From assembly GCA_905480215.1 (NCBI GenBank), contig CAJQPL010000034.1, positions 1 to 64,000 of the forward strand: a DNA stretch of 64,000 bases, given 5' to 3'. This DNA comes from an uncultured Woeseiaceae bacterium. GTDB taxonomy: Bacteria; Pseudomonadota; Gammaproteobacteria; Steroidobacterales; Woeseiaceae. Below, piece after piece: positions 45,189 through 64,000 of this stretch; the first letter of the stretch is position 1, and each line of letters opens with the position of its first letter. The notes under the pieces are model-generated. The model searched no databases. It saw only the letters and a program-made list of their open reading frames with translations, and was not told where the DNA came from. A program made the translations under genes and the position numbers.

Positions 45189-45196
45189 GAGATCGA

Positions 45197-46369
45197 GTGA
45201 GTTTAGCGATAATAGGCATTGCCGAAGTACCTACCAAACGTGATCCTGAGCGTACTCGCTGGGACATGCTGACAGAGGTTTGCATCGGTGCGATTCGTGA
45301 CGCCGGCGTTGATAAAGATGAAATTGAAGCCGTCATATCCGTGAACCCAATGGCACAACCGCAAATGGCGCTCGATATGGCGCTTGGTCGTGTTCCGGAA
45401 GTACTTGGACTAAAGGGCTGCAAAGACATCTGTGTTCTTAACGCAGGTGGAACGTCAACAACAAACTGTTTACGACTCGCGAAATATTTTCTTGAGAATG
45501 GCCAGGCGAAATTTGTGCTCATTCCTCACACCACCGTGCAGTCGGATATTCCGACTCAGGAATTGATCAATTTCTTTGCGACCGCGCCACTCGACATGCA
45601 GTGGGAGTATCCCTACGGCGTTACGTTTAACGGTGCGATGGGACTCATCACCAATCGCTACATGCATGACACCGGAGCTACCGCGGAAGAAATTGCTGCC
45701 GTAACCGTTTCGCTAAGAGCGTGGGGTGCTCTGGACCCGAATTCAATTTTCTATGGCAAGCCCGTAACGCTGGAACAGGTTATGGAATCGCGGATGATCA
45801 GCACGCCCTTACATGCGAAGGAGTGCAATCTTCTCGCCGACGGTGCCGGTGCAATGGTCGTTACCACACACGAGATCGCTCAGGAGTTAGGTAAATCAGC
45901 GGCCTATGAGCTTGGACATGGCGTCCGATTCACTGGCGCCACACCGGTGCTACGTAAAGATCCGTACTTTGTCGAGGCGTATCGCGAGTCCAGTCAGGAT
46001 GCATTGAAGCAAGCCAATCTGGGCATAAATGATATGGATCTTCGCCAGATATACGGCGCGTATCCGTTCACACAATGCAGTGCGCTCGAAGGTTACGGTG
46101 TTTGCGAGCCGGGTGAAGCCGCGAAAATCTGGGCCGAAGGTCGTTGTGGGCCAGGTGGCGACCTACCTTGTACGACAATGGGAGACGCGACCGGTCGAGG
46201 ACATACAGGCTCAGGCGTGAGCATGGCCTTCTATCTCGAGACAGTTCGGCAGTTAAGGGGCCAGGCCGGTGAACGCCAGGTAAGCGATTGCAATCATGCG
46301 TTGATTACAACCTCGGGTGGGTCAGTAATGAACACGGCGACGACAATCTTCGGGAGTGCACCGCGATGA
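45197..46369 (+). CDS. Thiolase-fold protein (SCP-x/Ltp2-like), no Cys at nucleophile position
   Basis: Thiolase-like N-terminus (LAIIGIAEVPTKRDPERT) and GDATGRGHTGSGVS; CVLNAGGTSTTN where the nucleophile loop should carry Cys. Confidence 0.8.
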   Translation: MSLAIIGIAEVPTKRDPERTRWDMLTEVCIGAIRDAGVDKDEIEAVISVNPMAQPQMALDMALGRVPEVLGLKGCKDICVLNAGGTSTTNCLRLAKYFLENGQAKFVLIPHTTVQSDIPTQELINFFATAPLDMQWEYPYGVTFNGAMGLITNRYMHDTGATAEEIAAVTVSLRAWGALDPNSIFYGKPVTLEQVMESRMISTPLHAKECNLLADGAGAMVVTTHEIAQELGKSAAYELGHGVRFTGATPVLRKDPYFVEAYRESSQDALKQANLGINDMDLRQIYGAYPFTQCSALEGYGVCEPGEAAKIWAEGRCGPGGDLPCTTMGDATGRGHTGSGVSMAFYLETVRQLRGQAGERQVSDCNHALITTSGGSVMNTATTIFGSAPR

Positions 46370-46776
46370 GTGACTACAAAAAGCCATTGCCGGTTGTACA
46401 GCCATATTCTCAGGCCTTCTGGGATGGTACAAAGCAAAACAAACTATTGATACAGACGTGTGGTGACTGCAAGGCGACGATCTTTTTCCCACGACAACAG
46501 TGTCCGGATTGTTGGTCTACCAATCTAGGTTGGATGGAAGCTAGAGGGACCGGAGAAATTTACGCCTTCTCCATCACCTACGAAGGTGTTGAAGCTGCAT
46601 TTGTAGAGGATTTACCTATTGTGCTCGCCTGGGTCGATCTTCCGGAAGGTATTCGCATGCAATCCAATATCATCGAGTGTGATCCGGACTCCATCGAGAT
46701 CGGCCAGCAGGTCGAAGTGGTCTATAAGAAGATCAATGACGATATTACCTTGCCATACTTCCGTCCGATTTCGTGA
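46366..46776 (+). CDS. DUF35 / OB-fold Zn-ribbon acyl-CoA-associated protein
   Basis: Zn-ribbon CGDCKATIFFPRQQCPDC then GEIYAFSITYEGV; start ATG overlaps thiolase-like stop. Confidence 0.9.
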   Translation: MSDYKKPLPVVQPYSQAFWDGTKQNKLLIQTCGDCKATIFFPRQQCPDCWSTNLGWMEARGTGEIYAFSITYEGVEAAFVEDLPIVLAWVDLPEGIRMQSNIIECDPDSIEIGQQVEVVYKKINDDITLPYFRPIS

Positions 46777-46779
46777 CCA

Positions 46780-47343
46780 ATGAGTGAAGCGTCGTGGGGG
46801 ATGTATGGCAGCTGGCAGGAAGCTGAGAATTTTCTCGGTAAGGTGATCGGCCAGGATGTTGCCGTTGATGCAGTCGAATTAGGTTCGATTCGCCGCTGGC
46901 TGGAACCCAAAGAATTCGCCTGTGAATTACACACCGATGCAACGGTCGCGAAGAGCGCCGGTTTTGATGATGTCGTGGCACCCAGCACAATGGTGTTTAC
47001 CTATGGCCTGCCTGCTTATTGGGCGCCCGGCGACGGACATGCGTCCATGGGCGACGAGCCGCGGCAAATTCCGATTCCGGTAATCTTTAATGTGCCAGCG
47101 CCGTGCACATTGAGCTTTGCATCGAATATTGATATGGAGTTTTTCGAGCCGATGACTGTCGGCGATGTAATCACCCGAACCAGTCGACTGAAGAGCATTG
47201 AGCACAAGGAGCTACGGGTTGGTAAAGGCGCATTCATGGCACAGGAAGACACGTATACTAACCAGCGAGGCGAGAATGTAGCGTTAGTCTTGCTGACTAT
47301 TTTTCGATTTACACCGCCTGAAAAGAGCCGTGACTCGGAATGA
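46780..47343 (+). CDS. MaoC/FAS1-type dehydratase-like protein (probable non-catalytic hot-dog partner)
   Basis: MaoC N-type sequence ELGSIRRWLEPKEFACELHTDATVAKSAGFDDVVAPSTM. Confidence 0.75.
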   Translation: MSEASWGMYGSWQEAENFLGKVIGQDVAVDAVELGSIRRWLEPKEFACELHTDATVAKSAGFDDVVAPSTMVFTYGLPAYWAPGDGHASMGDEPRQIPIPVIFNVPAPCTLSFASNIDMEFFEPMTVGDVITRTSRLKSIEHKELRVGKGAFMAQEDTYTNQRGENVALVLLTIFRFTPPEKSRDSE

Positions 47344-47768
47344 ATGCTAATACTCAGCGCAGCTTCGAATCGGTGTCGGTGGGTGACGAGTTATCGCCAA
47401 TCTCAATCCCGATAACACTACAAAGACTGGTTATGGAGGCAGGGGCAAACCGAGATTTCTCGTTGATTCACCACGACCGGGATGTGGCGAGATCAACAGG
47501 CGCTGCTGACGCCTACATGAACACCTTCTTTATTTCCGGCATGTTCGAGCGATTGTTGCGCGAATGGATGGGTTACACTGGCCGCTTGAACAAGATCACC
47601 AATCTGCGGATGAAGGTATTTAACGTGGTTGGCGATACGGTGACCTTTAACGGACGAGTATCTGAGCTACTCGCCGCTGAGCAGCAGGTAGTTCTGGACC
47701 TTTGGAGTGCATCCGAACAAGGAACGACCGTAACGGCACAAGCCACGGTGACGCTGACGACGGTATAA
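47340..47768 (+). CDS. MaoC-family dehydratase
   Basis: Hot-dog fold; RDFSLIHHDRDVARSTGAADAYMNTFFISGMFERLLREW with D/H dyad. Confidence 0.82.
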   Translation: MNANTQRSFESVSVGDELSPISIPITLQRLVMEAGANRDFSLIHHDRDVARSTGAADAYMNTFFISGMFERLLREWMGYTGRLNKITNLRMKVFNVVGDTVTFNGRVSELLAAEQQVVLDLWSASEQGTTVTAQATVTLTTV

Positions 47769-47778
47769 TCGCGCAGTT

Positions 47779-48654
47779 ATGACCTCGGAAATTCTTCAGC
47801 TTCTCATTAGCGGCATCTCGCAAGGCTGTCTCTATGGCCTCGTCGCGCTTGGCTTTGTCTTGATCTACAAAGCGACGGAGATGGTGAATTTCGCGCAGGG
47901 TGAGCTAATGATGCTCGGTGCGTTTGTTGCCTATACCTTTCTGGATATTCTGCAATGGCCTTTCTATTGGGCTGTTTTGGCGACCATCTTCGTAATGGCT
48001 GTTTTCGGCGTTGTGATCGAACGCGTATTCATGCGTCGCATGATCGGCGAGCCGCCGTTCGCGGCGCTTATGCTTACCATTGGTCTGGGTTTCTTGTTGC
48101 GCGCGGTGGCGGGCGCGATCTGGGGCAGTGATCCTCGCAGCATAACGACACCCTACGGCGGTGGTATTTTTTCGATCGGTGATGCTGTCCTGGGCTATGA
48201 AAATATTGCGATAGTGATCGGTACGGCGATCTTGTGTTTGCTGCTATATCTGTTTCTACGTTACACGAGAGTGGGTATCGCCATGCAGGCGGCATCGCAA
48301 AACCAACTGGCCGCTTATTACGTTGGTATTCCAGTCAAACGCGTATTTTCGCTAGTATGGGCAATATCAGCGATGATCGCAGCGGTTGCGGGCATCTTGA
48401 TCGCGCCGGTTTCACTGGTTGATCCGCAACTGGGATTCATAGGTGTGAAAGCGTTTGCTGCCGCCATTGTTGGCGGATTCGGTAGTTTGCCTGGAGCGAT
48501 TATCGGTGGCCTTATCGTCGGTGTTGCAGAGCAGTTTGCCGGACTGTATCTGCCGCCGGGTTTTGCCGACACCTCGGCCTACGTGATTTTGCTGCTGGTG
48601 TTGATCGCACGCCCCGAAGGGCTTTTTTCTACCATGCAAAAGAAGAAGGTCTAG
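47779..48654 (+). CDS. Branched-chain amino acid-type ABC transporter permease (LivH family)
   Basis: GISQGCLYGLVALGFVLIYKATEMVNFAQGELMMLGAF. Confidence 0.94.
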   Translation: MTSEILQLLISGISQGCLYGLVALGFVLIYKATEMVNFAQGELMMLGAFVAYTFLDILQWPFYWAVLATIFVMAVFGVVIERVFMRRMIGEPPFAALMLTIGLGFLLRAVAGAIWGSDPRSITTPYGGGIFSIGDAVLGYENIAIVIGTAILCLLLYLFLRYTRVGIAMQAASQNQLAAYYVGIPVKRVFSLVWAISAMIAAVAGILIAPVSLVDPQLGFIGVKAFAAAIVGGFGSLPGAIIGGLIVGVAEQFAGLYLPPGFADTSAYVILLLVLIARPEGLFSTMQKKKV

Positions 48655-48657
48655 CTA

Positions 48658-49734
48658 GTGCGCTTTATATTCAAAACGCAATATGAGCAGGACATCAGCT
48701 TGCTCAAGCACCGCGGGCAATTGTTCTGGTATGGCCTTTTACTCGCTGTACTGATTGCCGCACCGCTGTTTCTCGACCGTTTTTATCTCGGCGAAATATC
48801 CTTTGTTTTTATTTACGCCATTGCCGGACTCGGGTTGATGTTATTAACCGGGTTTACCGGTCAGGTAAGCCTGGGTCATGCGGCATTTCTCGCAATCGGC
48901 GCTTATGCACACGCCTATATGCTGTCCAAGGGGCTCGCGTTTGTCGTCGCGTTGCCGACTGCGATGATACTAACCGGCATCGTTGGCGCAATTGTCGCTA
49001 TACCGGCATTGCGATTGGTCGGTATCTATCTTGCGATAGCAACACTCGCGTTCTTGATCATCGTTGAGCAAATCATCATTCGCTGGGTGAGTGTGACTGG
49101 CGGCGGGCGCGGCATGCTAGTACCCCCAGTGGAAATATTTGGCCTGGCGGTTGCGACACCCGGACGTTTTTTCTATCTGTGTCTGGCGCTGCTGATTGTT
49201 GCACTGATATTTGTGATGAATCTTCTTCGTGCGCCAAGTGGCAGAGCTATGATCGCGGTTCGTGATTCGGAAATTGCCGCTCGCAGTATGGGTATCAATC
49301 TTGCTAAAACGAAAGCCACCTCTTTCGGTATTTCTGCAGCGTTGACGGGGCTCGCAGGCGCCTTAATGGCACACCATACGGGGTATATTTCACCAGAAGC
49401 GTTCACGCTGACGATCTCAATTCAGTTGCTATTACTGATTGTTGTCGGTGGGCTAGGCTCAATTCATGGCGCGATTCTCGGTGCTATTTTTGTTGGCTTC
49501 CTGCCGCAAGGAATCGCATTACTTCGGGATACTCTGCCGCCGGCGATCGGTGAAGTTCCGGGTCTCGAGCCCGGTGTTTTCGGCTTGATACTGATTCTCT
49601 TCTTGTTGTTCGAGCCGCACGGTATTTACGGACAGTGGTTAAAGGTCCGACAGTTTTTCTCAGAGTTCCCCTTATACCGCAGAGCAACAAACAAGCGACA
49701 AAAAACCTATCTTCGTACGGAGCGCGTGCGATGA
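48658..49734 (+). CDS. ABC transporter permease (LivM family)
   Basis: GLGLMLLTGFTGQVSLGHAAFLAIGAYAHAY, AVRDSEIAARSMGINLAKTKA; GTG start. Confidence 0.94.
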   Translation: MRFIFKTQYEQDISLLKHRGQLFWYGLLLAVLIAAPLFLDRFYLGEISFVFIYAIAGLGLMLLTGFTGQVSLGHAAFLAIGAYAHAYMLSKGLAFVVALPTAMILTGIVGAIVAIPALRLVGIYLAIATLAFLIIVEQIIIRWVSVTGGGRGMLVPPVEIFGLAVATPGRFFYLCLALLIVALIFVMNLLRAPSGRAMIAVRDSEIAARSMGINLAKTKATSFGISAALTGLAGALMAHHTGYISPEAFTLTISIQLLLLIVVGGLGSIHGAILGAIFVGFLPQGIALLRDTLPPAIGEVPGLEPGVFGLILILFLLFEPHGIYGQWLKVRQFFSEFPLYRRATNKRQKTYLRTERVR

Positions 49735-50504
49735 GTTTCTTTAGGGCTTCAAATCTGTGCTTAAGTTTTGGCGGCATACGCGCCGTTCAGGATGTGAGTT
49801 TTGAGGTCGAAAAGGGCGAAGTGTTTAGCATTATTGGTCCCAATGGCGCGGGAAAAACCACTGTCTTCAATCTCATTTCCCAATTCTACGATCTTGACAG
49901 TGGCAGTTTGCATTTAGGCGAAACTGATCTTGGAAAACTTCAGGCACACGATGTTGCGAACGTCGGTATTGCGCGGACATTTCAGAACACCGAGCTATTC
50001 GAGCACGAGACGGTATTGCAGAATCTGCTAATTGGTTGTCACGTCAATCGTCGCAGCGGATTGTTTTCAGAGCTGCTGCACTTACCGGGGGCGCGTAAAC
50101 AAGAACTTGAGTTTCGACAAACCGTTGAGGATGTTATTGATCTGGTTGACTTGCAGGCTTATCGCTACCAATCAATTGGCAGCCTGTCATACGGTGTGCG
50201 AAAGATGGTCGAGATTGCTCGCGCGCTTTGCGTAAAACCCAGGTTGTTACTGCTCGATGAGCCCGCATCCGGTCTGAACCCGGAGGAGACCGACGACCTG
50301 TCGTTCTGGATTGAGGATATCAGTCAGGATCTTGGTATCACGGTGCTGATGGTCGAGCACGATATGAGTCTGGTGTCGCGCGTGTCGAACCGTGTGCTTG
50401 CGATGTCGGAAGGTAAGCTGATTACGATTGGCAATCCTGGCGAAGTGCAGCGACATCCAGAAGTGCTGGAAGCCTATCTGGGTCAGTCTGAGGACGCGGC
50501 ATGA
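49731..50504 (+). CDS. ABC transporter ATP-binding protein (LivG family)
   Basis: GPNGAGKTT, GIARTFQNTELF, LLLDEPASGLNPEE. Confidence 0.94.
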   Translation: MSFFRASNLCLSFGGIRAVQDVSFEVEKGEVFSIIGPNGAGKTTVFNLISQFYDLDSGSLHLGETDLGKLQAHDVANVGIARTFQNTELFEHETVLQNLLIGCHVNRRSGLFSELLHLPGARKQELEFRQTVEDVIDLVDLQAYRYQSIGSLSYGVRKMVEIARALCVKPRLLLLDEPASGLNPEETDDLSFWIEDISQDLGITVLMVEHDMSLVSRVSNRVLAMSEGKLITIGNPGEVQRHPEVLEAYLGQSEDAA

Positions 50505-51289
50505 GCGAAGGGATGGCAAATAGTACGCCGATGCTCGAGCTCAAGAATATCGAGACCTACTACGGTCCGATCATGGCGATTCGCGGCGTTTCTTTGCAAG
50601 TGTTCGAGGGGCAGGTTGTATCGATCTTGGGCGCGAACGGTGCTGGCAAGACAACGGTGTTGAAGACAATCAGTGGCGCGATTGATCCACAGAAGGGACA
50701 GGTGATTTTCGAAGGTAAGGAAATCCAGGCCTGGGACCCGGATCGAGTAGCGCGACTTGGCATTGCGCACGTTCCGGAAGGACGCGAAGTGTTTCCATTC
50801 CTGAACGTTGAGAAAAACCTGCTAATGGGTGCGTATACGAGAAAGGATAGTGGTGTTAAAGCGGACCTCGCCATGATCTATGATTATTTTCCGGTCCTGG
50901 CAGAGAAAAAAGAGCAGGCGGCCGGATTCCTGTCTGGCGGCCAACAACAAATGCTCGCTATCGGCCGAGCGTTGATGTTGCGGCCGAAGCTCATGTTGCT
51001 GGATGAACCGTCACTGGGTTTGTCACCGGCCTTAGTTGCTGAGATCGCCGCAATCATCGTGCGTTTGAGGCATGAGCAGGGCGTGACGATTGTCCTTGTA
51101 GAGCAAAATGCACGAATGGCACTGGATATAGGCGATTTCGGCTATGTCATGGAGTTGGGGCGGGTCGTTATGGAGGACACTTGCGAGCGGCTCAAGGAAT
51201 CAAGCGACGTACAGGAGTTTTACCTCGGCATGAAGGACGAGGGCGTGCGTGAAGTCCGGCGTTGGAAACAGAGAAAGACGTGGCGATAA
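50501..51289 (+). CDS. ABC transporter ATP-binding protein (LivF family)
   Basis: GANGAGKTTVLKTISG, HVPEGREVFPFLNVEKNLLMGAY, LSGGQQQMLAIGRALM. Confidence 0.94.
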   Translation: MSEGMANSTPMLELKNIETYYGPIMAIRGVSLQVFEGQVVSILGANGAGKTTVLKTISGAIDPQKGQVIFEGKEIQAWDPDRVARLGIAHVPEGREVFPFLNVEKNLLMGAYTRKDSGVKADLAMIYDYFPVLAEKKEQAAGFLSGGQQQMLAIGRALMLRPKLMLLDEPSLGLSPALVAEIAAIIVRLRHEQGVTIVLVEQNARMALDIGDFGYVMELGRVVMEDTCERLKESSDVQEFYLGMKDEGVREVRRWKQRKTWR

Positions 51290-53115
51290 GCGACGAAGAA
51301 ATTAAGACGCAGCTAATTGATGGTTGCGACACGGTCGCGAAACTGTTTCGTAAACGAGTTCGCGACTTGCAGGGTAAAGTCGCGTTGCGTGAAAAAGACT
51401 TTGGTATCTGGAATGAGTACAGCTGGACGGATTACGGCAAGCAAGTACGACTTTGCAGTCTCGGTCTCAAGGCATTGGGACTTAAGCGTGGGGACGTTTG
51501 TTCTGTTGCCTCCGAAGTTTGCCGAGAGTGGTTTTTCGTTGACCTCGGCATTGTCTGCGCCGGCGGCATCACCAACGGCGTGTATCCTACCGACGCGCCG
51601 AGTCAGGTTGAGTATTTGGTCAACGACAGTGATACGAAATTCTATTTCGCTGAAGATGAAGAACAGCTAGACAAAATATTACAAGTTCGTGATTCAACGC
51701 CTACCTTGAAGAAAGTTATTATTTTCGACATGGAAGGCCTGCGTAAGCTGGACGACGCAATGTGCATTAGTTTTGAGGATTTCCTGGAGCTCGGCAGGAA
51801 ATACCTGGCGGATCATCCCGACGAATGGGATGAGGACATCGACGCCTCGATGCCTGATGAACTGATCACTCTTACGTATACATCAGGAACAACGGGAAAA
51901 CCGAAAGGCGCGATGATCAGCCATCGCAATATGGTTTACATGAGCCGCAATCTTCAAGAAATCTACGGCATCGAAACCGACGACGACCAGCTCGCTTTTC
52001 TGCCGCTCGCACACATTGCGGGAAAGATGTTCTATACCTTCGCTGCGATGGAGTCGTGTTCAGTCGTCAACATCATCGAGAGTCTTGAGACGGTAAATCA
52101 GGATATGCAGGAGGTAGCACCGACAATTCACTTCGCGGTGCCGCGAGTTTGGGAAAAAATGTATTCGACGATTGTGATTAAACTCAAGGACGCCACTTGG
52201 TTCGGTCGCGTCGCCTATGAATGGGCCATTGGCATCGGAGAGCAAGCAGCTAACGCCCGTCTTAGCGGCAAGCGGTTATCGCCCTTCTTAAGGGTTTCGC
52301 ATGCTATTGCAGATAAGGCTGTGCTTAGGAATGTTCGTGTTTTGCTGGGTATCGATCGCGCTCGTTGGCTATCGACCGGGGCAGCGCCTATATCACCTGA
52401 TCTGATACGTTGGTTTTTTGCACTTGGTACGCCAATGTACGAGGCCTATGGGCAAACAGAGTGTACTGGGCTCGTTACGGCCAATACGCCGCAAGCGATA
52501 CGGATTGGAAGTGTTGGCAGCTGTTGCGACGGGGCAACGGTTCAGTTGTCGGATGCGAGGGAAATCATGATCCGCAGCCCGGGTGTGATATCCGGCTATT
52601 GGAAGCAGCCGGAGAAGACAGCTGAAACGATTCGTGATGGCTGGCTGTACACGGGTGATGTCGGCGAAATCGATGACGATGGCTTTGTATTTATTCGCGA
52701 TCGCATGAAGGACATTATTATTACTGCGGGCGGCAAGAACATTACGCCGAGTGAGATCGAAAACCAGCTCAAGTTCTCTCCGTTTATATCTGACGCAGTT
52801 GTTGTTGGAGACAAGCGGCCATACTTGACCTGTCTGGTGATGATTGACCATGAGAACGTCACCAAATTTGCGCAGGACAACAACGTGCCATTTACCAACT
52901 ACGCGAGTTTATGTCACTCGAGTGAAGTACAGGACTTGATTGGGGATATAATCGAGACCGTTAACAAGCAATTCGCGCGTGTTGAGACGGTGAAGAAATT
53001 TCGTTTGATAGATCAGTTACTTGATCCTGAAGATGATGAATTAACACCAACGATGAAACTTAAACGAAAAGTCGTAAACGAAAAGTACAGCGATATGATT
53101 GAGGAGATGTACTGA
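51262..53115 (+). CDS. Long-chain-type AMP-forming acyl-CoA synthetase
   Basis: TYTSGTTGKPKGAMISHRN, YEAYGQTECTG, GWLYTGDVGEIDDDGFVFIRDRMKDIIITAGGKNI. Confidence 0.94.
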   Translation: METEKDVAISDEEIKTQLIDGCDTVAKLFRKRVRDLQGKVALREKDFGIWNEYSWTDYGKQVRLCSLGLKALGLKRGDVCSVASEVCREWFFVDLGIVCAGGITNGVYPTDAPSQVEYLVNDSDTKFYFAEDEEQLDKILQVRDSTPTLKKVIIFDMEGLRKLDDAMCISFEDFLELGRKYLADHPDEWDEDIDASMPDELITLTYTSGTTGKPKGAMISHRNMVYMSRNLQEIYGIETDDDQLAFLPLAHIAGKMFYTFAAMESCSVVNIIESLETVNQDMQEVAPTIHFAVPRVWEKMYSTIVIKLKDATWFGRVAYEWAIGIGEQAANARLSGKRLSPFLRVSHAIADKAVLRNVRVLLGIDRARWLSTGAAPISPDLIRWFFALGTPMYEAYGQTECTGLVTANTPQAIRIGSVGSCCDGATVQLSDAREIMIRSPGVISGYWKQPEKTAETIRDGWLYTGDVGEIDDDGFVFIRDRMKDIIITAGGKNITPSEIENQLKFSPFISDAVVVGDKRPYLTCLVMIDHENVTKFAQDNNVPFTNYASLCHSSEVQDLIGDIIETVNKQFARVETVKKFRLIDQLLDPEDDELTPTMKLKRKVVNEKYSDMIEEMY

Positions 53116-54319: not shown

Positions 54320-55948
54320 ATGAAAACTCTGAGCACCGGTAGTTGCCTACTCGCGCTTGCGATATCAGTATTTTTGATAAGTGGCTGTAATGATGGTGGT
54401 GCGCAGAAATCTTACGACGTTGTGATACTGAATGGTCGCGTCATGGATCCGGAGACGAATTTTGATGGCGTGAGAAACGTCGGCATCAAGGATGGCCGAA
54501 TCCTTGCAATTACCGAAGAAGCGGTATTTGGCGATGAAGTGATTGATGCCAGAGGCCACGTTGTCGCAGCGGGATTTATCGACACAGAACAGCACGGGCT
54601 GGGTCCCTGGGGGATCAAGGTAAATCTGCGTGATGGTGTGACCACTCAAATGGACTTTGAGCTTGGCGCCGCCAACATCGATGAATGGTACGCGGCAAAA
54701 AAAGGCAATACACAAGCCAACTACGGCACGGTCGCCAGCCATGAATTCGCACGCATGCAAGTACACGATGAATTGACGTTGGCTGGACCGAATATCTCGA
54801 TGCCATTCGCGTTCGACTATCGAAGCAAAGCGGCTGAAGACGGAGTAGACGGATGGTCTGTTAGTCGCAGCACGGTCGCGCAGATGAACGAGATTTCAAA
54901 AATACTGGACGAGAGCCTGCGACTCGGTGCAATTGGCGTTGGTTCAACCGTTGGTTATGCGCAAAAAGGTGTCACCACTTACGAGATGTTTGAAGTTCAG
55001 CGAGCCGCGGCTCGCTATGATCGGATGACGTCGGCGCATCATCGATTTCACCCGAGTTCTGCAACCCCAACCGAGCAACCTACCGGTGTCAGTGAGCTGC
55101 TATCGAATGCCATGGTGTTAAAAGCGCCACTTCAAATACATCACGACAACGACTACGGGTGGTGGGAAAACCAGGAAAAAATGGCGCTCGCTCGAGAGCA
55201 GGGTTTTAATGTTTGGGCGACCTATTATCCCTGGATTGCCGGCTCAGGTAATTACGGATCCAACATTGTCGCACCCGATATCTGGGAAAAGGTGATGGGC
55301 TTTAAGTATGAGGAGACAATTTTTGATCCGCAGTTGCAGCGTTTCGTAACGAAAGAAGAGTTCTTAGAGATCAGCGCGGCGGAACCGGGTCGGATATTGA
55401 TTGCGTACAGCCCGCCGCGTCGTATTTGGTTACCCGAGTGGCTAAAAGTCGAACACTTTGTGATTGGCAGTGACGGAATGCCTAGTCTCAATGCTAATGG
55501 TGAGCATCTGGAGTGGGATGCACCTTATGAAGACTATGCAGGTCATCCACGTTCCGCCGGCTCACATGCCGTGACGCTTCGCCTGGCTCGTGAAGGCGGC
55601 GTGCCATTGATGCATACCCTTGCTCAACTCAGTTACTGGAGCGCGAAACATATTGGCGATACTGGACTCAGGGGCATGCAGGAACGAGGGCGTATGCAGG
55701 AAGGAATGATTGCCGACATTACTGTTTTCGATGCCGAAAATGTAACTGAGCATGCGTCCTATGAGCCAGGTACGTCAGGGCTGGCTTCGACCGGCATTCC
55801 CTACGTTCTTGTCAACGGAGTAGTGGTAGTCCGCGACTCGAAAATTGCAGAAGATGTGTTTCCAGGGCAAGCACTGCGATTCCCTGTTGAAGACAAAGGT
55901 CGATTCGAGCCACTAGGCGATGATGCATGGTCAGGATCGTACGACTAA
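54320..55948 (+). CDS. N-acyl-D-amino-acid deacylase-like amidohydrolase, predicted lipoprotein
   Basis: Lipobox LISGC; YDVVILNGRVMDPETNFDGVRNVGIKDGRI, VAAGFIDTEQHG, MQERGRMQEGMIADITVFD. Confidence 0.85.
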   Translation: MKTLSTGSCLLALAISVFLISGCNDGGAQKSYDVVILNGRVMDPETNFDGVRNVGIKDGRILAITEEAVFGDEVIDARGHVVAAGFIDTEQHGLGPWGIKVNLRDGVTTQMDFELGAANIDEWYAAKKGNTQANYGTVASHEFARMQVHDELTLAGPNISMPFAFDYRSKAAEDGVDGWSVSRSTVAQMNEISKILDESLRLGAIGVGSTVGYAQKGVTTYEMFEVQRAAARYDRMTSAHHRFHPSSATPTEQPTGVSELLSNAMVLKAPLQIHHDNDYGWWENQEKMALAREQGFNVWATYYPWIAGSGNYGSNIVAPDIWEKVMGFKYEETIFDPQLQRFVTKEEFLEISAAEPGRILIAYSPPRRIWLPEWLKVEHFVIGSDGMPSLNANGEHLEWDAPYEDYAGHPRSAGSHAVTLRLAREGGVPLMHTLAQLSYWSAKHIGDTGLRGMQERGRMQEGMIADITVFDAENVTEHASYEPGTSGLASTGIPYVLVNGVVVVRDSKIAEDVFPGQALRFPVEDKGRFEPLGDDAWSGSYD

Positions 55949-58281
55949 TCTCTCTTGCTGAGAACTGGCGCTGTCAAAACGCGAACAACGGGCAACTCGC
56001 CCTCAAACACCTCAGCTTCAACCAGACAGCTGTGCGCCGTCGGGCCTTGCGCGAGCTTTGATGTGCCCACGTCTCTCGTTAATACATTCGGGTTGCCGTG
56101 CACGTCCATGGAGTTTTCGTTGCTTGGGTCTTCCGGGTCATACCAGGCCCCGGTGGGCAATTCGAGAACACCTTCTCCCATCGACTCGCTGATGACAGCT
56201 GCGGCAAGACATGATCCGCGGTCGTTGTAGAGTCGAACAATATCGCCAGAGCTAATATCTCTCGCTTTCGCGTCTTTGGCATTCATGCGTACGATTTCGC
56301 GGTCTTTGATCTTTGCATTGCGGCTGTTGGCGGCATGATCATACTGACTGTGTAGTCTGGTTTTGGGCTGATTGCTGATCAGATGTAGCGGAAATTGCTT
56401 CGCGCGTTCTGCGCCGAGCCACTCCGTCTTGTCATACCAGGCTGGATGACCGCCGCAATCGTCATAGTCGTAGTTCGCGATAACGTCGGAAAAGATTTCG
56501 ATTTTCCCTGAAGGGGTTTCTAACGGGTTCGCGACCGGATCCAAACGGAAGTTCTCTAAACGAAAAACAGCGTCGGGTACTTTGTCGCTCAGGCGTATTT
56601 GTTCTCCAGCCCAAAACGTGTCGAAGTCCGGTATCGAAATATCAACTTCAGCGGCATTATTGCGTGTCGTTTCGTACAGGTGCTTGATCCACTGCATCTC
56701 ATCGCGCCCTTCGGTGAATTCCTCTTCGACGCCCATTCGTGTTGCGAGATCGGAAAACACATCGTAATCGTCACGCGCCTGCTTAAACTTCGATACTGCC
56801 TTCGGCATTGGCGAGAGGGCGTTGTCGTAAATGCCGCCCGCCATGTCGTTTCGTTCGAGTGGCGTGGTACATGGAAATACTATGTCCGCATGTCGTGCGG
56901 TTGCCGTCCAAAACGGTTCATTGACGATTATCGTTGCAGGTTTTGCCCAAGCATGTCGCAAGCGCCCGATATCCTGATGATGGTGAAACGGATTGCCGCC
57001 GGCCCAGTAAATGAGCTCGATGTCCGGATAGGTAATTGAACTGCCGTTGAAGTCGATTGTTTCGCCGGGGTTCAATAGCATGTCGGAAATACGAGCTACC
57101 GGGATGTGCGACTTCACCGGGTTTCTTCCCTGCGGCAATGCGCCAACTTTGAAGGGCAGCGCGCCGCGGCCGAAGAAACCGATGTTGTGCACGGATCCAT
57201 AGCCATACGCAACGCCCCCGCCAGGTTGGCCGTGACAGCCGATCATTGCACCCAGGGTTGTGGCCATCCAATAGGTTTGTTCACCATGTTCGGCGCGTTG
57301 CAACGACCAACTGATACCGAGGACGCATCGTTCGGCCGCCATGCGTCTCGCTATGCGTCGAATGTCTTCGGCCTTGATACTCGACAAGGATTCGGCCCAC
57401 TCGGCGCTTTTCGCTACACCATCGGATTCACCAAGCAAGTAGGGAGTGAATTTTTCGTAACCAACAGTGTATCGGTCCAGGAATGCTCTGTCGGTCAGTC
57501 CTTCTGTTTCCACTGTGTGCGCAATGCCCAACATTATCGCGACATCGGAGTTGGGGCGGCATGACCACCACTCGGCATTCAGGACCTCGGACATGTCATC
57601 GCGAATTGGACTGACATTAATGAAATCGATGTTCGCCTGACGCAATTCGTCGACTTGATCTGCCGCCGTATGCCCTCCAAGCCCACCTGCATTCACCTGT
57701 GTATTTTTCATAGCAATGCCGCCGAAGCAAACGGCGAGGCGCGTATGTTCTGTCATGTCTTTAACTGTTGGTGCCTCGAACATCACCTGGAAAAAATGCA
57801 TGCCAAGGACGTGAGGAATAATGACCTCGGCCGCACCAGCGGAATAGCTGGTTACAGAATAGGTGTAGCCGCCAATCGTATTCAGAAAGCGGTGCACCTG
57901 ACTTTGTGCATGATGAAATCGTCCGGCACTGGCCCAACCATAAGAGCCGCCGAATATGGCCTCGTTGCCATGCTCGCTGCGGGTGGTGCTGAGTGCTACT
58001 GCAGCAAGATCCAGCGCCTCGTCCCATGAGACGGCGATGAATGCTTCCTTGCCGCGTTGGCTGCCGTCGCTTTTTTGTCCGTCACGTAGATAGCCCTCGC
58101 GCACCATAGGTTGTGCAATGCGCGTGTTTGGATCTTTGGCTTCGAGCAGCGATTGCCCGATCGGGGTCGGGTTGGTATCGGCGTCGTAATTGTGAATCGC
58201 AACCAGCTCATCGTCTTTGACTTCGACTCGGTAGTTACCCCAATGCGAGCTTGTCGGTGTAATTTTTCCGTCATTGGCCAC
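55945..58281 (-). CDS. Molybdopterin oxidoreductase of the DMSO reductase/BisC/TorA family
   Basis: SSHWGNYRVEV, SYSAGAAEVIIPHVLG (Ser-ligand type), LISNQPKTRLHSQYDH; no Tat signal; GTG at 58281 fits the neighbouring stop. Confidence 0.88.
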   Translation of the reverse strand: MANDGKITPTSSHWGNYRVEVKDDELVAIHNYDADTNPTPIGQSLLEAKDPNTRIAQPMVREGYLRDGQKSDGSQRGKEAFIAVSWDEALDLAAVALSTTRSEHGNEAIFGGSYGWASAGRFHHAQSQVHRFLNTIGGYTYSVTSYSAGAAEVIIPHVLGMHFFQVMFEAPTVKDMTEHTRLAVCFGGIAMKNTQVNAGGLGGHTAADQVDELRQANIDFINVSPIRDDMSEVLNAEWWSCRPNSDVAIMLGIAHTVETEGLTDRAFLDRYTVGYEKFTPYLLGESDGVAKSAEWAESLSSIKAEDIRRIARRMAAERCVLGISWSLQRAEHGEQTYWMATTLGAMIGCHGQPGGGVAYGYGSVHNIGFFGRGALPFKVGALPQGRNPVKSHIPVARISDMLLNPGETIDFNGSSITYPDIELIYWAGGNPFHHHQDIGRLRHAWAKPATIIVNEPFWTATARHADIVFPCTTPLERNDMAGGIYDNALSPMPKAVSKFKQARDDYDVFSDLATRMGVEEEFTEGRDEMQWIKHLYETTRNNAAEVDISIPDFDTFWAGEQIRLSDKVPDAVFRLENFRLDPVANPLETPSGKIEIFSDVIANYDYDDCGGHPAWYDKTEWLGAERAKQFPLHLISNQPKTRLHSQYDHAANSRNAKIKDREIVRMNAKDAKARDISSGDIVRLYNDRGSCLAAAVISESMGEGVLELPTGAWYDPEDPSNENSMDVHGNPNVLTRDVGTSKLAQGPTAHSCLVEAEVFEGELPVVRVLTAPVLSKRD

Positions 58282-58285
58282 GAGC

Positions 58286-59488
58286 TTACTTGAGCAGCTC
58301 CTGCGCGATGATGATCTGGCGGATTTGGTTGGTCCCAGCACCGATTTCCATGAGTTTGCCAATTCTGTATAGCTGGTTTATTTCGCTTTCAAGGATATAA
58401 CCAGTCCCACCATGCACCTGCACGCCGTTGTCGACGACCTTCATTAGCGTGCGGCCAGCATGCAACATGCATGCGGACGAGCGCATGTGAATTTCACCGC
58501 GACCGCCGCCGCCAACTTTAAGGTCGTGCACTTCCTTGGCCAATTGATAGCTGAGCGCCCGCATCGACTGTATGTCGGTGTACATGTCGGCAAGAATGCC
58601 CTGCACGAGCTGGAAATTGGCGATTGCCTGCCCAAATTGTTTGCGTTGCGCGGCGTATTCGAGCGAAATATCCAAAGCGCGTTGTGCAACGCCGATCATA
58701 TGGAAGCACATCATGACGCGTTCCATATTCAGACCACTCATAAGGACACCTACGCCGCCGTTCTCTGGGCCAACTAGTCGGCTGGCAGGCACCCGGCAGT
58801 CGTCAAACACAAGTTCGGCTGTGGGAATGCCACGCCACCCCATCTTGTCGAGTACTTGCGCTACCTTGAACCCATCAGTTCTTGTGTCGAAGGCAAATGC
58901 GCTGACGCCACGCGATCCTTTCTCCGGATCCGTTTTGGCATACAGAAGAATAATCTGCGCAACCGGGCCCATCGTAATGAACATCTTTCGGCCGTTTATG
59001 ATGTAGTCGTCACCATCACCGTTACCATCACGTATGGCGGTTGTTGCCATCGAACCCAATGCGTCCGATCCTGCACCGGGTTCGGTCATTCCCAAAGCGC
59101 CAATGATGCTGCCGTCACAAAAGCCCGGCAAGATTTCCTGCTTTAGGTCCTCGCTCGCGTTGCGAACAATATTATGTGCGCAGATGCTATCGGTTCCGAG
59201 CCATCCAGCGCCAAAGGTTGGGTTCCAGTAGGACATTGCCTCAGCGATAAAGCATTGCTCAAGAAATCCCAGTCCCTGACCGCCGTAGGCTTCAGGGATT
59301 GATGTTCCTAGCAGACCGACCTCATGCAGTGTGCGAAAACGTTCTTCGGGAAACCAGTCCTCGCGATCCATTTTGGCGCACAGGGGATGCAGTTCGTCAC
59401 GACTAAAGCGGTACACCATGTCGTAGACCTGCTGCTGCTCATCGGTGAATCCGTAGTTGGCAAGATTAGGTTGCGTCATGAACGACAT
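58286..59488 (-). CDS. Acyl-CoA dehydrogenase
   Basis: LGTSIPEAYGGQGLGFLEQC, GALGMTEPGAGSDA, VHGGTGYILESEINQLYR; internal ATG 59488 preferred. Confidence 0.93.
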   Translation of the reverse strand: MSFMTQPNLANYGFTDEQQQVYDMVYRFSRDELHPLCAKMDREDWFPEERFRTLHEVGLLGTSIPEAYGGQGLGFLEQCFIAEAMSYWNPTFGAGWLGTDSICAHNIVRNASEDLKQEILPGFCDGSIIGALGMTEPGAGSDALGSMATTAIRDGNGDGDDYIINGRKMFITMGPVAQIILLYAKTDPEKGSRGVSAFAFDTRTDGFKVAQVLDKMGWRGIPTAELVFDDCRVPASRLVGPENGGVGVLMSGLNMERVMMCFHMIGVAQRALDISLEYAAQRKQFGQAIANFQLVQGILADMYTDIQSMRALSYQLAKEVHDLKVGGGGRGEIHMRSSACMLHAGRTLMKVVDNGVQVHGGTGYILESEINQLYRIGKLMEIGAGTNQIRQIIIAQELLK

Positions 59489-59529
59489 TCTCCGGTATTC
59501 GACGTGAAAGGCGCTATCAATTTCGGCAC

Positions 59530-59964
59530 TTATTCGTGTCGCTGCAACGCGCTGCGGAGTTCCTTGGGCAACTTTGCGATTGTCTTGGTTTCCGTATTCA
59601 CACAAACCTGTGTAACAAGGCCCGAGAACGCCGCAATCCCCGATTGATTGAGTGCGACAACCTGGGTTGTGTATGAGTGGGTGCGCAATTCATGTAATCC
59701 CGCACGAATCTCCAAGTCATCGTCCCAGGTTACTGGTTTGAGAAAATCTACATTTAGGTTGCGGGCCGGTAAGGTCATATTTCTTGCGAACACGAAGCGC
59801 TCGAAAGGCTCGCCTAGAGAGTCGGATACAAATTTGAGCGCACCTTCGACAATACACTCTGTAATGCGCGGTGTGTACATGACACCGGCCGGATCACATT
59901 CGCCGAATAGCACGCGTCGATTTTGCACAAAATGCTTAGCAATATCGATATTGTTGTCACGCAT
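59530..59964 (-). CDS. 4HBT-family acyl-CoA thioesterase
   Basis: RRVLFGECDPAGVMYTPRI motif of the 4-hydroxybenzoyl-CoA thioesterase family. Confidence 0.85.
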   Translation of the reverse strand: MRDNNIDIAKHFVQNRRVLFGECDPAGVMYTPRITECIVEGALKFVSDSLGEPFERFVFARNMTLPARNLNVDFLKPVTWDDDLEIRAGLHELRTHSYTTQVVALNQSGIAAFSGLVTQVCVNTETKTIAKLPKELRSALQRHE

Positions 59965-60427
59965 CATCCAAACCCCAATAGCGGTTAATGAATGTTGCGA
60001 CCGCAGCTGTTTCATTTGAATCGGCAAAAACGAATGAGATCGCGTAGTGCACCTCAATACCTTGATCGCGATCGAGGACTTTATCGACTACGGCACGCCC
60101 GACAATCTTCGAGCCGACTGTTACCGGTTTCAGAATGCGTATGCGATCAATACCCTTTACGATGATGCGAGGAATGTTGATTTCCATTTGTTGCCAGAAC
60201 ATGTGCGGGAATAGAGCGGGAAGAAAGAGTCCCGGCGCGATGATGCTTCCCAATGGTGACGCTTCACAGCGCTCCTGATCCCAATGAATCCATTCGTCGT
60301 TCAGTGTGCCACGGCAAAAGTCCTGAATGCCTTCGCTGGTGATTTCAATTGGGTCGGAGTCAATGATCTGCTGACCTTCCAATCGCCGAAAGTCGTCGTA
60401 GTTGTTGATAACTGTTTTTGTCGTCAC
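59957..60427 (-). CDS. MaoC-family dehydratase
   Basis: Hot-dog sequence TLNDEWIHWDQERCEASPLGSIIAPGLFLPALFPHMFWQ. Confidence 0.8.
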   Translation of the reverse strand: MTTKTVINNYDDFRRLEGQQIIDSDPIEITSEGIQDFCRGTLNDEWIHWDQERCEASPLGSIIAPGLFLPALFPHMFWQQMEINIPRIIVKGIDRIRILKPVTVGSKIVGRAVVDKVLDRDQGIEVHYAISFVFADSNETAAVATFINRYWGLDDA

Positions 60428-61071
60428 GCCGGCTGCCTTGTAGCTGCTATACCATTGAGAATCATATTACGCGCACCGTGCGCCAATGCGCGACCGTCGA
60501 GTTGATCGCCACGCCGATGCCATTCAAGCAACAAACCGTCTATAAGGGCTACGATGACGGCAGCCTGATATTCGGGCGGAATGTCGGACGTAAACTCTCC
60601 GCTCAATTGACCGACCCGGGTGACTTCGGCGATCGCATTCTGCAGGTCTTTGTAGGTCTTGCGCACCATTTCTTCTATTCTGTTTCCACGCCCATGCATT
60701 TCCAGCGACACGAGAACATGTAGCAGCGGTAGCTCCTTTCGCTCGGCGCCAACTATTGCGAACCAATTCGTGAGCATGATGATGCGGTCTCGAGCTGATC
60801 CATTCGATGCTCCAATCTTTGCAATGATGGGATCGATTAGCTCCTTGTCGGTTCTTAGCAGTAATGCTTCCAGTAGCGATAGCTTGTCTTTGAAATAGAA
60901 GTAAACGGCGCCCTTGGTCAGGCCGGCCTGACCTGCGATGTCGTCCATACTGGTCGCATCATAGCCACGCGTGACGAACAGACTAAGGGCGGAATCGAGC
61001 ACCGACTTGATGCTGGATCGTCGTCGCTCGGAGTTTGGAACTCGTTGTTTTTTAATAGTATTTGTTACCAT
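60424..61071 (-). CDS. TetR/AcrR family transcriptional regulator
   Basis: SVLDSALSLFVTRGYDATSMDDIAGQAGLTKGAVYFYFKDKLSLLEALL. Confidence 0.94.
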   Translation of the reverse strand: MVTNTIKKQRVPNSERRRSSIKSVLDSALSLFVTRGYDATSMDDIAGQAGLTKGAVYFYFKDKLSLLEALLLRTDKELIDPIIAKIGASNGSARDRIIMLTNWFAIVGAERKELPLLHVLVSLEMHGRGNRIEEMVRKTYKDLQNAIAEVTRVGQLSGEFTSDIPPEYQAAVIVALIDGLLLEWHRRGDQLDGRALAHGARNMILNGIAATRQPA

Positions 61072-61105
61072 TGCCGGTATTGATAAGAGTTTGGCCGCTG
61101 ATCAC

Positions 61106-61145
61106 TTGACCGCATCATGCCATAAACATACTATCCAGTCAGTAT
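61106..61145 (+). promoter_or_regulatory. Predicted sigma70 promoter overlapped by an inverted-repeat candidate TetR operator
   Basis: -35 TTGACC (61106-61111), 17-bp spacer, -10 TACTAT (61129-61134); inverted repeat ATACT-N8-AGTAT (61128-61145). Confidence 0.55.
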
Positions 61146-61161
61146 CTAATTGGAAGAAACC

Positions 61162-62100
61162 ATGGAAACGAGTGATCAGGTAGATGTCGAAGCGGCCATG
61201 CTGGCTCGTATTGACGATGGCGAACTGTTCGAAAGCATCGATGAGCTGTCGCCTCGATACCGGGAGATCCTGAAACAAACCGCTGAAATTGCCTCGATCA
61301 GCGAAGTCAGCGTATTGACGTGGGCCTGCACCGCCTACCCCACTGCGCCGGACATTGGTGCCAAGATCGCAGTGTGCGCCACTATTCTTGACGAGGTTGG
61401 TCATGCTTATCACCAGGGAGTTCTCGCTGAGCAATTTGGTGTGGATGTGCACGCCCGAGCCTTCCACGACGACATCAAGTTCATTTGGACCTGGCCGATC
61501 ATGGAATTTCCAATTCGAAACTATATTGAGTTCGTCGTTATGCAGTCGATGCTTGATCGTGCAGGTCTGCACTGGACCAAAGACCTCGAACTGCACTGCA
61601 GTTTTGCGCCGTATCGCCGCACGCTAAGAAAAGTGAATTTCGAAGAAGGCTTTCACATGCGTCACGGAAACTTCTGGACGGAGTATTACTGGAATCAGTC
61701 GGACGAATCGCGCGCGATGGTGCAACGCTCAATCGATTGGATTTTTCCCTTCGGCGTGATGTGGTTCGGAAAACCAGACAGTCTTAAGACGCGTCCTGAA
61801 CAACTCAAATACAAAGTGCGCGGATGGGGCAATGACTTCATGCGTGAGAAATGGCTGCAATCATCTTGTGCATTTCTTGATCGTCTGGGTGCAGATTTTC
61901 CCGCGGAGTTTGATGAGGAACAAAAGAAATGGGTTATCACTATGCCCTACCCAATGAAGTATGAGCCCGAGACTTATACCTGGACACAGGAAAAGTGTGA
62001 GCACGATGAGTACTGGGCTCATTCACGCAAGGGTGGACCGATGCGACCGGCTGCATACGATCGATTGCGACGCGAAGAGTGGGGCGATCAGTTGTGGTAG
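61162..62100 (+). CDS. PaaA-like diiron oxygenase catalytic subunit
   Basis: Ferritin-like Paa family: AKIAVCATILDEVGHAYHQGVLAEQFG, EEGFHMRHGNFW; ATG 61162 behind GGAAG. Confidence 0.88.
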   Translation: METSDQVDVEAAMLARIDDGELFESIDELSPRYREILKQTAEIASISEVSVLTWACTAYPTAPDIGAKIAVCATILDEVGHAYHQGVLAEQFGVDVHARAFHDDIKFIWTWPIMEFPIRNYIEFVVMQSMLDRAGLHWTKDLELHCSFAPYRRTLRKVNFEEGFHMRHGNFWTEYYWNQSDESRAMVQRSIDWIFPFGVMWFGKPDSLKTRPEQLKYKVRGWGNDFMREKWLQSSCAFLDRLGADFPAEFDEEQKKWVITMPYPMKYEPETYTWTQEKCEHDEYWAHSRKGGPMRPAAYDRLRREEWGDQLW

Positions 62101-62411
62101 CCGTATACGAAAATGTTACTGCTGCGGTTGGCAAGGTTCTTGATCCGCACATCAACGTACCGCTGACGGAAATGGGCATGTTGAGCAAAGTAGAAGTTGA
62201 TGCCGACGGTGACGTCGACGTTTCACTGGTATTTCCCTGTATGGGTTGTCCGGCATTCACGATGCTAAAAGAAAACGTCAAAACGCAGGTGCGGCGTGTC
62301 AGCGGCGTGAACAATGTTCGTGTGAAAGTTGACTGGGAAGCGAAGTGGGACCGGACAAAAATGTCGGACCGGGCAAAAGAATACGCCGCCAAGAGCGGCT
62401 ACAGAATCTAG
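62094..62411 (+). CDS. PaaD N-terminal domain protein (DUF59/MIP18), stand-alone
   Basis: VLDPHINVPLTEMGMLSKVEVDADGDVDVSLVFPCMGCPAFTMLKENV...VRVKVDWEAKWDRTKMSDRAKEYAAKSGYRI; GTG start. Confidence 0.83.
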   Translation: MVAVYENVTAAVGKVLDPHINVPLTEMGMLSKVEVDADGDVDVSLVFPCMGCPAFTMLKENVKTQVRRVSGVNNVRVKVDWEAKWDRTKMSDRAKEYAAKSGYRI

Positions 62412-62424
62412 ACGAGGAATTGTT

Positions 62425-62661
62425 ATGGCGCTTGGACGATCATCAGACCAGGACCAAATGTTCGAAGTGTTCGGCCGCGATCAGATTGAGCGACCACTAG
62501 CGCATATCGGTAGCATCGTGGCGCCAAATCAGGAGCTAGCGGTCGCGCGTGCAAGAATCCTGTATTCAGAGCGCCCCTGGGTTGAGCTTTGCGTCGCGCC
62601 TGCAGACGTCTTCATGGGCTGTCTTGCGCCGAACCAGAACGGCTCAATTGGAGTCGCATAG
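62425..62661 (+). CDS. PaaB-like oxygenase subunit
   Basis: MFEVFGRDQIERPLAHIGSIVAPNQELAVARARILYSERPWVELCVAPA. Confidence 0.85.
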   Translation: MALGRSSDQDQMFEVFGRDQIERPLAHIGSIVAPNQELAVARARILYSERPWVELCVAPADVFMGCLAPNQNGSIGVA

Positions 62662-62663
62662 CA

Positions 62664-62843
62664 ATGGCCAGAACAAAACCAACAGAAAGATATGATCGTG
62701 ATGTTCATTGCCCTTGGTGTGAATCAGACGATACTCGCCTGGTCAGCATCTATGGCCCTAGCGCGGCAGAAATGATGTTTAAGTGCCTTAGCTGTTTGCA
62801 GAGTTTTGGCTGGATGAAGTGGCAACAGAGGTTACCGGAATGA
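62664..62843 (+). CDS. PaaD C-terminal zinc-ribbon domain protein, stand-alone
   Basis: VHCPWCESDDTRLVSIYGPSAAEMMFKCLSCLQSFGWMKW; four-Cys ribbon like the PaaD C-terminus. Confidence 0.8.
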   Translation: MARTKPTERYDRDVHCPWCESDDTRLVSIYGPSAAEMMFKCLSCLQSFGWMKWQQRLPE

Positions 62844-63700
62844 GTATGTCGAGTTCAGTACGTGATGCCCTGAAGGGTGAATTGCTGTGCATTGCTGATA
62901 GCAATTGGATTCTCGGGCACTGGTATTGCAATTGCATGCTGAATGGTCGCGAGTTGACTGATTTTACGTCGATGGCCGGTATTGCTGAAGACAAGCTTGG
63001 CCATACACGTGCGTTGTTTCGATTCATGGAAGAGTACTTCGACCTTCCCGAGTACCAATTGGAGTTTGGAAGGGGTATCACCGAGATACATAGCATGCAA
63101 TTGCTGGATGCTCCGCCGCAGAATTGGGGTGACTTCATACTGACGCTGTATCTGGCCGATGCCGTGATTTGGCGATTCTCGAACACTTTACGGGAAGGAA
63201 GCTTCGCGCCGGTTGCGAATCTCGTCACCAAATTCGGAGAGGAGGCGTATTTTCACCAACTTTGTATAGACGGTTGGCTGAAGGCATTGGATGACACAGA
63301 GAAAGATGACCTTCTTAATGCATTGCCGAGCAGGTTGCCGCTCGCCTTAGCTTGGCTACAGGAAAACCCTACTGATCACCTGCTGGACGCAGGAATACGC
63401 ACGCAGGCGATAGCAGATGCAAGAGCTTCGACGACGGAGTTGGTGCTAAATAAGCTCGGGTCGATAGTCGACTTTTCTAGCGATCAACTAGAGGCATTGC
63501 TCGCGGCTGGTGAGACAAGCGACTGGGATCATCGCCGTCGCCGTCCTGTAGCAAGTGCTATGCCGCCACGACTATGGGAATCTGTCGTGCCGACCAGTGA
63601 GGCCGCGCAAATTGCTCGTCGGCCGCTGGCTGTCAGTGTGGATGACAACATCGATCTCTTTGTCACGGCCAAAAAAGACGAGACGGAACCTACTTTTTAG
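62840..63700 (+). CDS. PaaC-like oxygenase structural subunit
   Basis: LLCIADSNWILGHWYCNCMLNGRELTDFTSMAGIAEDKLGHTRALFRF. Confidence 0.87.
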   Translation: MSMSSSVRDALKGELLCIADSNWILGHWYCNCMLNGRELTDFTSMAGIAEDKLGHTRALFRFMEEYFDLPEYQLEFGRGITEIHSMQLLDAPPQNWGDFILTLYLADAVIWRFSNTLREGSFAPVANLVTKFGEEAYFHQLCIDGWLKALDDTEKDDLLNALPSRLPLALAWLQENPTDHLLDAGIRTQAIADARASTTELVLNKLGSIVDFSSDQLEALLAAGETSDWDHRRRRPVASAMPPRLWESVVPTSEAAQIARRPLAVSVDDNIDLFVTAKKDETEPTF

Positions 63701-64000
63701 TCAGTCGTTGGCGCCAATCACAACTTCAATTCCGTCTAATTCATCTGTCATGTGAATCTGACAGGTAAGTCGACTGTTTTCGCGCCTGTCTTCAACCATG
63801 TACAACATGCTGTCCTCCAGATCCTCGACGGGTGGTAATTTTGAGAGCCATCGTTCGCCGATATAAGAGTGACAGGTGCCACAAGCGGCGGCACCGCCGC
63901 ATTCGGCGACCATACCCGGAATCTGCTGATTGAACGCGCCCTCCATGAGCGTGTATCCGGGTTCAAGCTCAACTTCGTGGCGGTTACCATTTGGGTCAAT
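63701..64000 (-). CDS. Adrenodoxin/putidaredoxin-type [2Fe-2S] ferredoxin (5' end outside window)
   Basis: VAECGGAAACGTCHSYIGERW...LTCQIHMTDELDGIEVVI; frame remains open (IDPNGNRHEVELEPGYTL) to the window edge. Confidence 0.88.
   Translation of the reverse strand: MDPNGNRHEVELEPGYTLMEGAFNQQIPGMVAECGGAAACGTCHSYIGERWLSKLPPVEDLEDSMLYMVEDRRENSRLTCQIHMTDELDGIEVVIGAND

Follow-up and report, generated by a model that had tools for sequence, protein, structure and literature searches.

A PaaABC-like diiron oxygenase operon with PaaD encoded as two proteins in an uncultured gammaproteobacterium

The five-gene operon described here is real and conserved and belongs to a subfamily for which no name could be found. 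It is encoded in a window of 64,000 nt, i.e., the whole stretch analyzed, which comprises the whole contig minus 48 bases and originates from a 65% complete gammaproteobacterial assembly. With a probability of roughly 0.7, judged from sequence comparisons, its products constitute a PaaABC-type diiron acyl-CoA oxygenase of a distinct subfamily with a two-piece PaaD, which is probably fed by a ferredoxin and probably acts on a substrate other than phenylacetyl-CoA.

ORF calling in the window revealed five intact ORFs on the plus strand that are tightly coupled in the order A-D1-B-D2-C. A (61162-62100, plus strand, 312 aa; PF05138, 4e-31) resembles the catalytic diiron subunit PaaA and keeps six of six diiron ligand positions. 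D1 (62094-62411, plus strand, 105 aa; PF01883, 1e-14) corresponds to the DUF59 (FeS_assembly_P) half of PaaD and starts with GTG, B (62425-62661, plus strand, 78 aa; PF06243, 9e-8) is similar to the bridging subunit PaaB, and D2 (62664-62843, plus strand, 59 aa; PF23451 "PaaD zinc beta ribbon", 1e-14) corresponds to the Cys4 zinc-ribbon half of PaaD with a CX2C...CX2C motif. C (62840-63700, plus strand, 286 aa; PF05138, 3e-15) resembles the structural subunit PaaC. The PaaD domains are thus both present, placed on separate ORFs with paaB between them. A and D1 share 7 nt (GTGGTAG), the GTG start of D1 overlapping the stop of A, gaps of 13 nt and 2 nt separate D1 from B and B from D2, and 4 nt (ATGA) are common to D2 and C. 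The preliminary description had reported this five-gene arrangement with short or overlapping junctions, including the ATGA at 62840, and inspection of ORFs and junctions bore it out; the length of D1 had been given as 106 aa and is corrected to 105 aa. Its gene list had missed a 2Fe-2S ferredoxin gene on the minus strand, the stop codon of which abuts that of C (63701).

Profile searches confirmed the earlier proposal that both small ORFs are related to PaaD: besides the matches to PF01883 and PF23451, D1 aligns with 3-87 and D2 with 101-144 in the NCBIfam PaaD model TIGR02159, which has 146 positions. As these matches fall at opposite ends of the model, D1 and D2 represent the N- and C-terminal parts of a single known protein. 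The scores are 45.9 bits for D1 and 35 bits for D2 (cut-off 108.15), while the haloarchaeal half-PaaD models NF041868 and NF041869 give 55.1 and 31.2 bits (cut-offs 180 and 100). The Pfam matches of A, B and C all lie above the gathering cut-offs; toward the equivalog models A reaches 82.7 bits for TIGR02156 (cut-off 280), B 26.4 bits for TIGR02157 (cut-off 85.45) and C 37.1 bits for TIGR02158 (cut-off 133.35). B matches TIGR04031, a radical-SAM-partnered candidate RiPP family, slightly better than the PaaB equivalog, and this family may in part consist of PaaB-like proteins. A predicted model of C (pLDDT 76) matches both PaaC and PaaA structures, with PaaC as the best match. An AlphaFold model of A was discarded as its pLDDT of 43 is too low to judge the pocket. 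Sulfolobus solfataricus SSO1313 (PDB 4mud), which has a PaaA/PaaC-like fold, is similar to A in sequence and to C in sequence and predicted fold.

In PaaA the diiron ligands are Glu42, Glu72 and His75 together with Asp126, Glu155 and His158, and Lys68 forms a lysine bridge with Glu49, Glu72 and Asp126, which was proposed to relay electrons from PaaE (PMC7497051, PMC4498308). The diiron ligands are retained in all 24 sampled A proteins of the family with split PaaD, except for one E155Q replacement; this Gln is found in the Natrialbaceae A protein L085:6989-7975. Lys68 and Glu49 are present in 60 of 60 canonical PaaA proteins and in none of the 24 split-family A proteins. In the window, A carries Thr at position 68 and Ala at position 49, and across the family Thr, Ala, Ile or Val replace Lys68, and Ala, Tyr, Gln, Asp or Leu replace Glu49. 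Within the gammaproteobacterial clade, the pocket residue Phe108 is furthermore replaced by Met and Lys103 by Trp. In C of the window, three of the diiron ligands (positions 42, 72 and 155) are lost, as would fit a subunit without catalytic function. The PaaC encoded on the Haloferax mediterranei plasmid pHME505 (L090:6111-7046) keeps six of six diiron ligand positions, unlike bacterial PaaC, and may hold a second diiron site.

Phylogenetic trees rooted on PaaC paralogues placed the split-family A proteins in one clade (support 98/93 and 96/94 in two trees), sister to the canonical PaaA clade (100/99), and the C proteins mirror the same division (96/76 and 99/95). The canonical PaaA of H. mediterranei falls on the canonical side, and A of the window lies outside that branch. 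The divergent PaaABC-like oxygenase suggested in the preliminary description is therefore well founded in the TIGR02156 score, the sister position in the trees and the absence of the lysine bridge, and this divergence of A makes a substrate other than phenylacetyl-CoA plausible. The absent lysine bridge is a stronger sign of a different enzyme than the split of PaaD, although its loss by itself is no proof of another substrate.

A scan of GTDB genomes yielded ten loci (L044-L053), of which L053 lies on the same contig as L043 (genome G018) and was counted once; the comparison set thus comprises ten distinct loci besides the window, from Woeseiaceae, Pseudomonadales and Gammaproteobacteria MAGs. 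Identities to these loci range from 74 to 88% for A, 64 to 84% for D1, 67 to 79% for B, 65 to 74% for D2 and 59 to 69% for C. The order A-D1-B-D2-C is found in eight of eight loci with full coverage of the operon, and the contigs of L048 and L051 stop after B and D2. The arrangement, for which a survey had been suggested, hence recurs in the ten other loci, all from gammaproteobacterial MAGs, within the limits of their contigs, and because both the proteins and their order are shared, the operon is neither a chance assembly of genes nor an assembly artefact. It is nevertheless rare and patchy, as the gene is present in only three of 73 genomes of the genus and as scores in the range of the split family (491-534 bits) were obtained in just two of 399 Pseudomonadota genomes, the source genome and the Bradyrhizobium-like genome G623; the remaining Pseudomonadota matches score at most 157 bits and represent canonical PaaA.

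Outside this clade, a plasmid search with A and a haloarchaeal relative as queries identified clusters in haloarchaea (L085, L088, L089, L138-L140, L142), Thermus (L086, L087, L141) and Agrobacterium (L136, L137), and the search of the phylum Pseudomonadota added the cluster of G623 (L092). For groups other than Pseudomonadota, all evidence of the family comes from plasmid records. These clusters belong to the same clade, have a split PaaD and lack the lysine bridge, but they differ from the operon of the window in that D2 follows C and in their neighbours, and they are annotated in general terms ("phenylacetic acid catabolic protein") or not at all. The Thermus clusters additionally contain a second PaaB-like ORF between B and C, which is free of cysteines (L087:8441-8623, L141:15444-15626). 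A reading of the Thermus TF19 cluster as A-D1-B-D2-C was dropped, as the 60-aa ORF between B and C is this cysteine-free, PaaB-like type and the true ribbon follows C.

Profile searches detected a separate ribbon ORF, often unannotated, downstream of C in every plasmid-borne cluster and in that of G623, and the split is found throughout the 24 sampled family members apart from one whose contig stops first. All ribbons checked share the CX2C...CX2C motif with the same span of 29 residues. Two genomes, G458 and G530, gave candidates for standalone ribbons, but these are weak matches with no PaaA-like neighbour and were rejected. The split is thus not specific to this operon: it is a trait of the family, shared moreover by the canonical paa operon of H. 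mediterranei, and what sets the gammaproteobacterial clade apart is the placement of D2 between B and C. The haloarchaeal paaABCD'E' genes (NF041867, NF041868, NF041869; H. mediterranei pHME505) likewise encode a DUF59 protein and a 56-aa Cys4 ribbon on separate adjacent genes, where the halves are named PaaD (DUF59) and PaaE (ribbon), and NCBIfam already holds separate models for both. They differ in that the order is A-B-C-D1-D2 and that PaaA still has the lysine bridge and falls among the canonical PaaA proteins. No paper on split PaaD or on this clade was found in the open-licence literature. The preliminary description had treated a fused PaaD elsewhere in the genome as an objection to a two-piece factor; this has no force, as both forms coexist in the same-genus genome G018, which carries the split operon alongside a separate canonical paaABCDE cluster with fused PaaD and PaaE. 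No fused PaaD was found in the 65% complete source assembly.

The smallest number of changes between split and fused states on the tree is two. A fused Streptomyces row branches near Haloferax; as its placement is weak (86/76) and its branch long, the change between the split and the fused state could have run in either direction. The chances are about even that the family is an ancient and so far unnamed group of diiron acyl-CoA oxygenases across bacteria and haloarchaea, without a lysine bridge and with a two-protein PaaD, in which separate D1 and D2 are possibly ancestral and fused PaaD is derived.

The ferredoxin gene beside the operon (63701-64000, minus strand) is convergent with C and runs a few bases past the window but is complete on the contig; its product is a 2Fe-2S ferredoxin of the CX5CX2C type (PF00111, 2e-8; TIGR02007, 4e-10). 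A ferredoxin lies beside the operon in nine of nine gammaproteobacterial loci with coverage, the window included, and is likely the electron donor for the enzyme of this clade, as inferred from linkage. Of the seven haloarchaeal loci, six have a 2Fe-2S ferredoxin of the CX4CX2C type nearby. Searches around the Thermus, Agrobacterium, Bradyrhizobium-like (G623) and Natrialbaceae AArc-T1-2 members detected no ferredoxin; since the types differ between clades and some members have none nearby, the linkage may not mean electron donation. It had been stated that PaaE, PaaG/Z/J and PaaK are not adjacent, which holds within the window, ending 48 bp short of the contig end. The 65% complete source assembly gave no match to the PaaE model TIGR02160, and in G018 and G623 PaaE sits in separate canonical clusters. 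The joint absence of bridge and PaaE is suggestive but not strict, as canonical haloarchaeal PaaA keeps the lysine bridge in a cluster without a PaaE-type reductase.

Upstream of the operon, divergent from A, lies an ORF for a TetR-type regulator, named by reading of the sequence (60424-61071, minus strand) and kept in the two nearest relatives, followed by genes for a MaoC-like hydratase (59957-60427, minus strand; PF01575, 2e-10), kept in all ten other loci, and an acyl-CoA dehydrogenase (58286-59605, minus strand; NCBIfam ACAD models up to 302 bits), kept in eight of eight other loci with coverage. A TorA/BisC-type molybdopterin S/N-oxide reductase gene (55945-58362, minus strand) adjoins the latter; such a gene is also near the operon in five other loci and not in L049, L050 and L052. 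Further away, an island at 44043-53115 encodes an acyl-CoA dehydrogenase (ACAD), a thiolase, a DUF35 protein and two MaoC-like proteins; ABC-transporter-like genes and one for an acyl-CoA ligase come next. The island resembles the lipid-transfer-thiolase/DUF35 cassettes of side-chain degradation. The neighbours all speak for the breakdown of acyl-CoA compounds; no neighbour defines the substrate, which may differ between branches.

Several other explanations were considered. The operon could encode an ordinary phenylacetyl-CoA epoxidase in which paaD was recently broken into two genes. It does share with the canonical E. coli-type PaaABCE epoxidase and its PaaD the subunits A, B and C, both PaaD domains, the diiron ligand set and the fold family, but the scores fall far below all PaaA, PaaB, PaaC and PaaD equivalog cut-offs, Lys68 and Glu49 are missing, the neighbours are others, paaGZJK are not adjacent, a free ferredoxin takes the place of an adjacent PaaE reductase, and G018 possesses its canonical paaABCDE separately. 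The split is moreover not recent, as the halves are conserved in one clade over Pseudomonadota, Thermus and haloarchaea, making this explanation very improbable. It is also rather unlikely that D1 and D2 are independent of each other, D1 being a general SufT-like Fe-S assembly factor and D2 a protein that regulates the oxygenase or forms part of its structure. The genes are separate, and the best score of D1 is for the SUF-associated model TIGR02945 (70 bits, under the cut-off of 143); however, both halves align to one PaaD model, at opposite ends, co-occur in the operon family-wide and are fused in one ORF in 30 of 30 canonical paaD ribbon loci checked in Pseudomonadota, which suggests that they act together, presumably as a two-piece maturation factor.

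Concerning the substrate, at least the Thermus and haloarchaeal members of the family might take over the task of BoxAB and epoxidise benzoyl-CoA or another short aryl-CoA. Their clusters encode benzoate-CoA-ligase-family ligases, crotonases, aldehyde dehydrogenases and branched-chain-type ABC transporters, and PaaAC was crystallised with benzoyl-CoA according to the entry title of PDB 3pvr. The crotonases and aldehyde dehydrogenases match general models with no Box-specific one among the matches listed, however, nor was a Box model among the NCBIfam matches listed for A or C, and near its operon the gammaproteobacterial clade has no such set of genes but ACAD, MaoC, thiolase and DUF35 genes; this idea is rather unlikely. 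For the gammaproteobacterial enzyme, a role in a side-chain degradation island was considered, in which it would hydroxylate an acyl-CoA of alicyclic or isoprenoid/steroid-like structure. The ACAD-thiolase-DUF35-MaoC-MaoC set occurs at 44-48 kb of the window and beside the operon in L043, L044 and L052, the island thiolase matches lipid-transfer-type thiolases including 6ok1, and CoA-transferase family III genes lie near the operon in L045 and L049; the island is absent from the 10 kb flanks in L045, L046, L049 and L050, and this substrate assignment is doubtful.

For the distinct oxygenase subfamily favoured here, A would hold the diiron site and activate O2, with C as non-catalytic partner and B as bridging subunit, as judged from homology. 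D1 and D2 together would do the job of fused PaaD, delivering or assembling the iron cofactor in vivo, a role that the literature gives PaaD itself only as a proposal. Electrons would probably reach the gammaproteobacterial enzymes from the 2Fe-2S ferredoxin encoded next to them, which a reductase from another part of the genome would charge. The oxygenase probably oxidises a CoA thioester, though not phenylacetyl-CoA, and its product would then be processed by the MaoC hydratase, the acyl-CoA dehydrogenase and the thiolase encoded nearby.

The family comprises natural variants that lack exactly the two residues mutated in PaaA E49Q K68Q, as named in the title of entry 4ii4, and such enzymes offer a test bed for the proposed electron relay through the lysine bridge. 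PaaD is reported to be indispensable in vivo, by a mechanism that is unknown (PMC4498308), and a two-protein PaaD allows the halves to be deleted or purified one at a time. PaaA and PaaC were proposed as markers of phenylacetate degradation (PMC13186573); the family is a warning that the annotation "phenylacetic acid catabolic protein" need not mean phenylacetate degradation.
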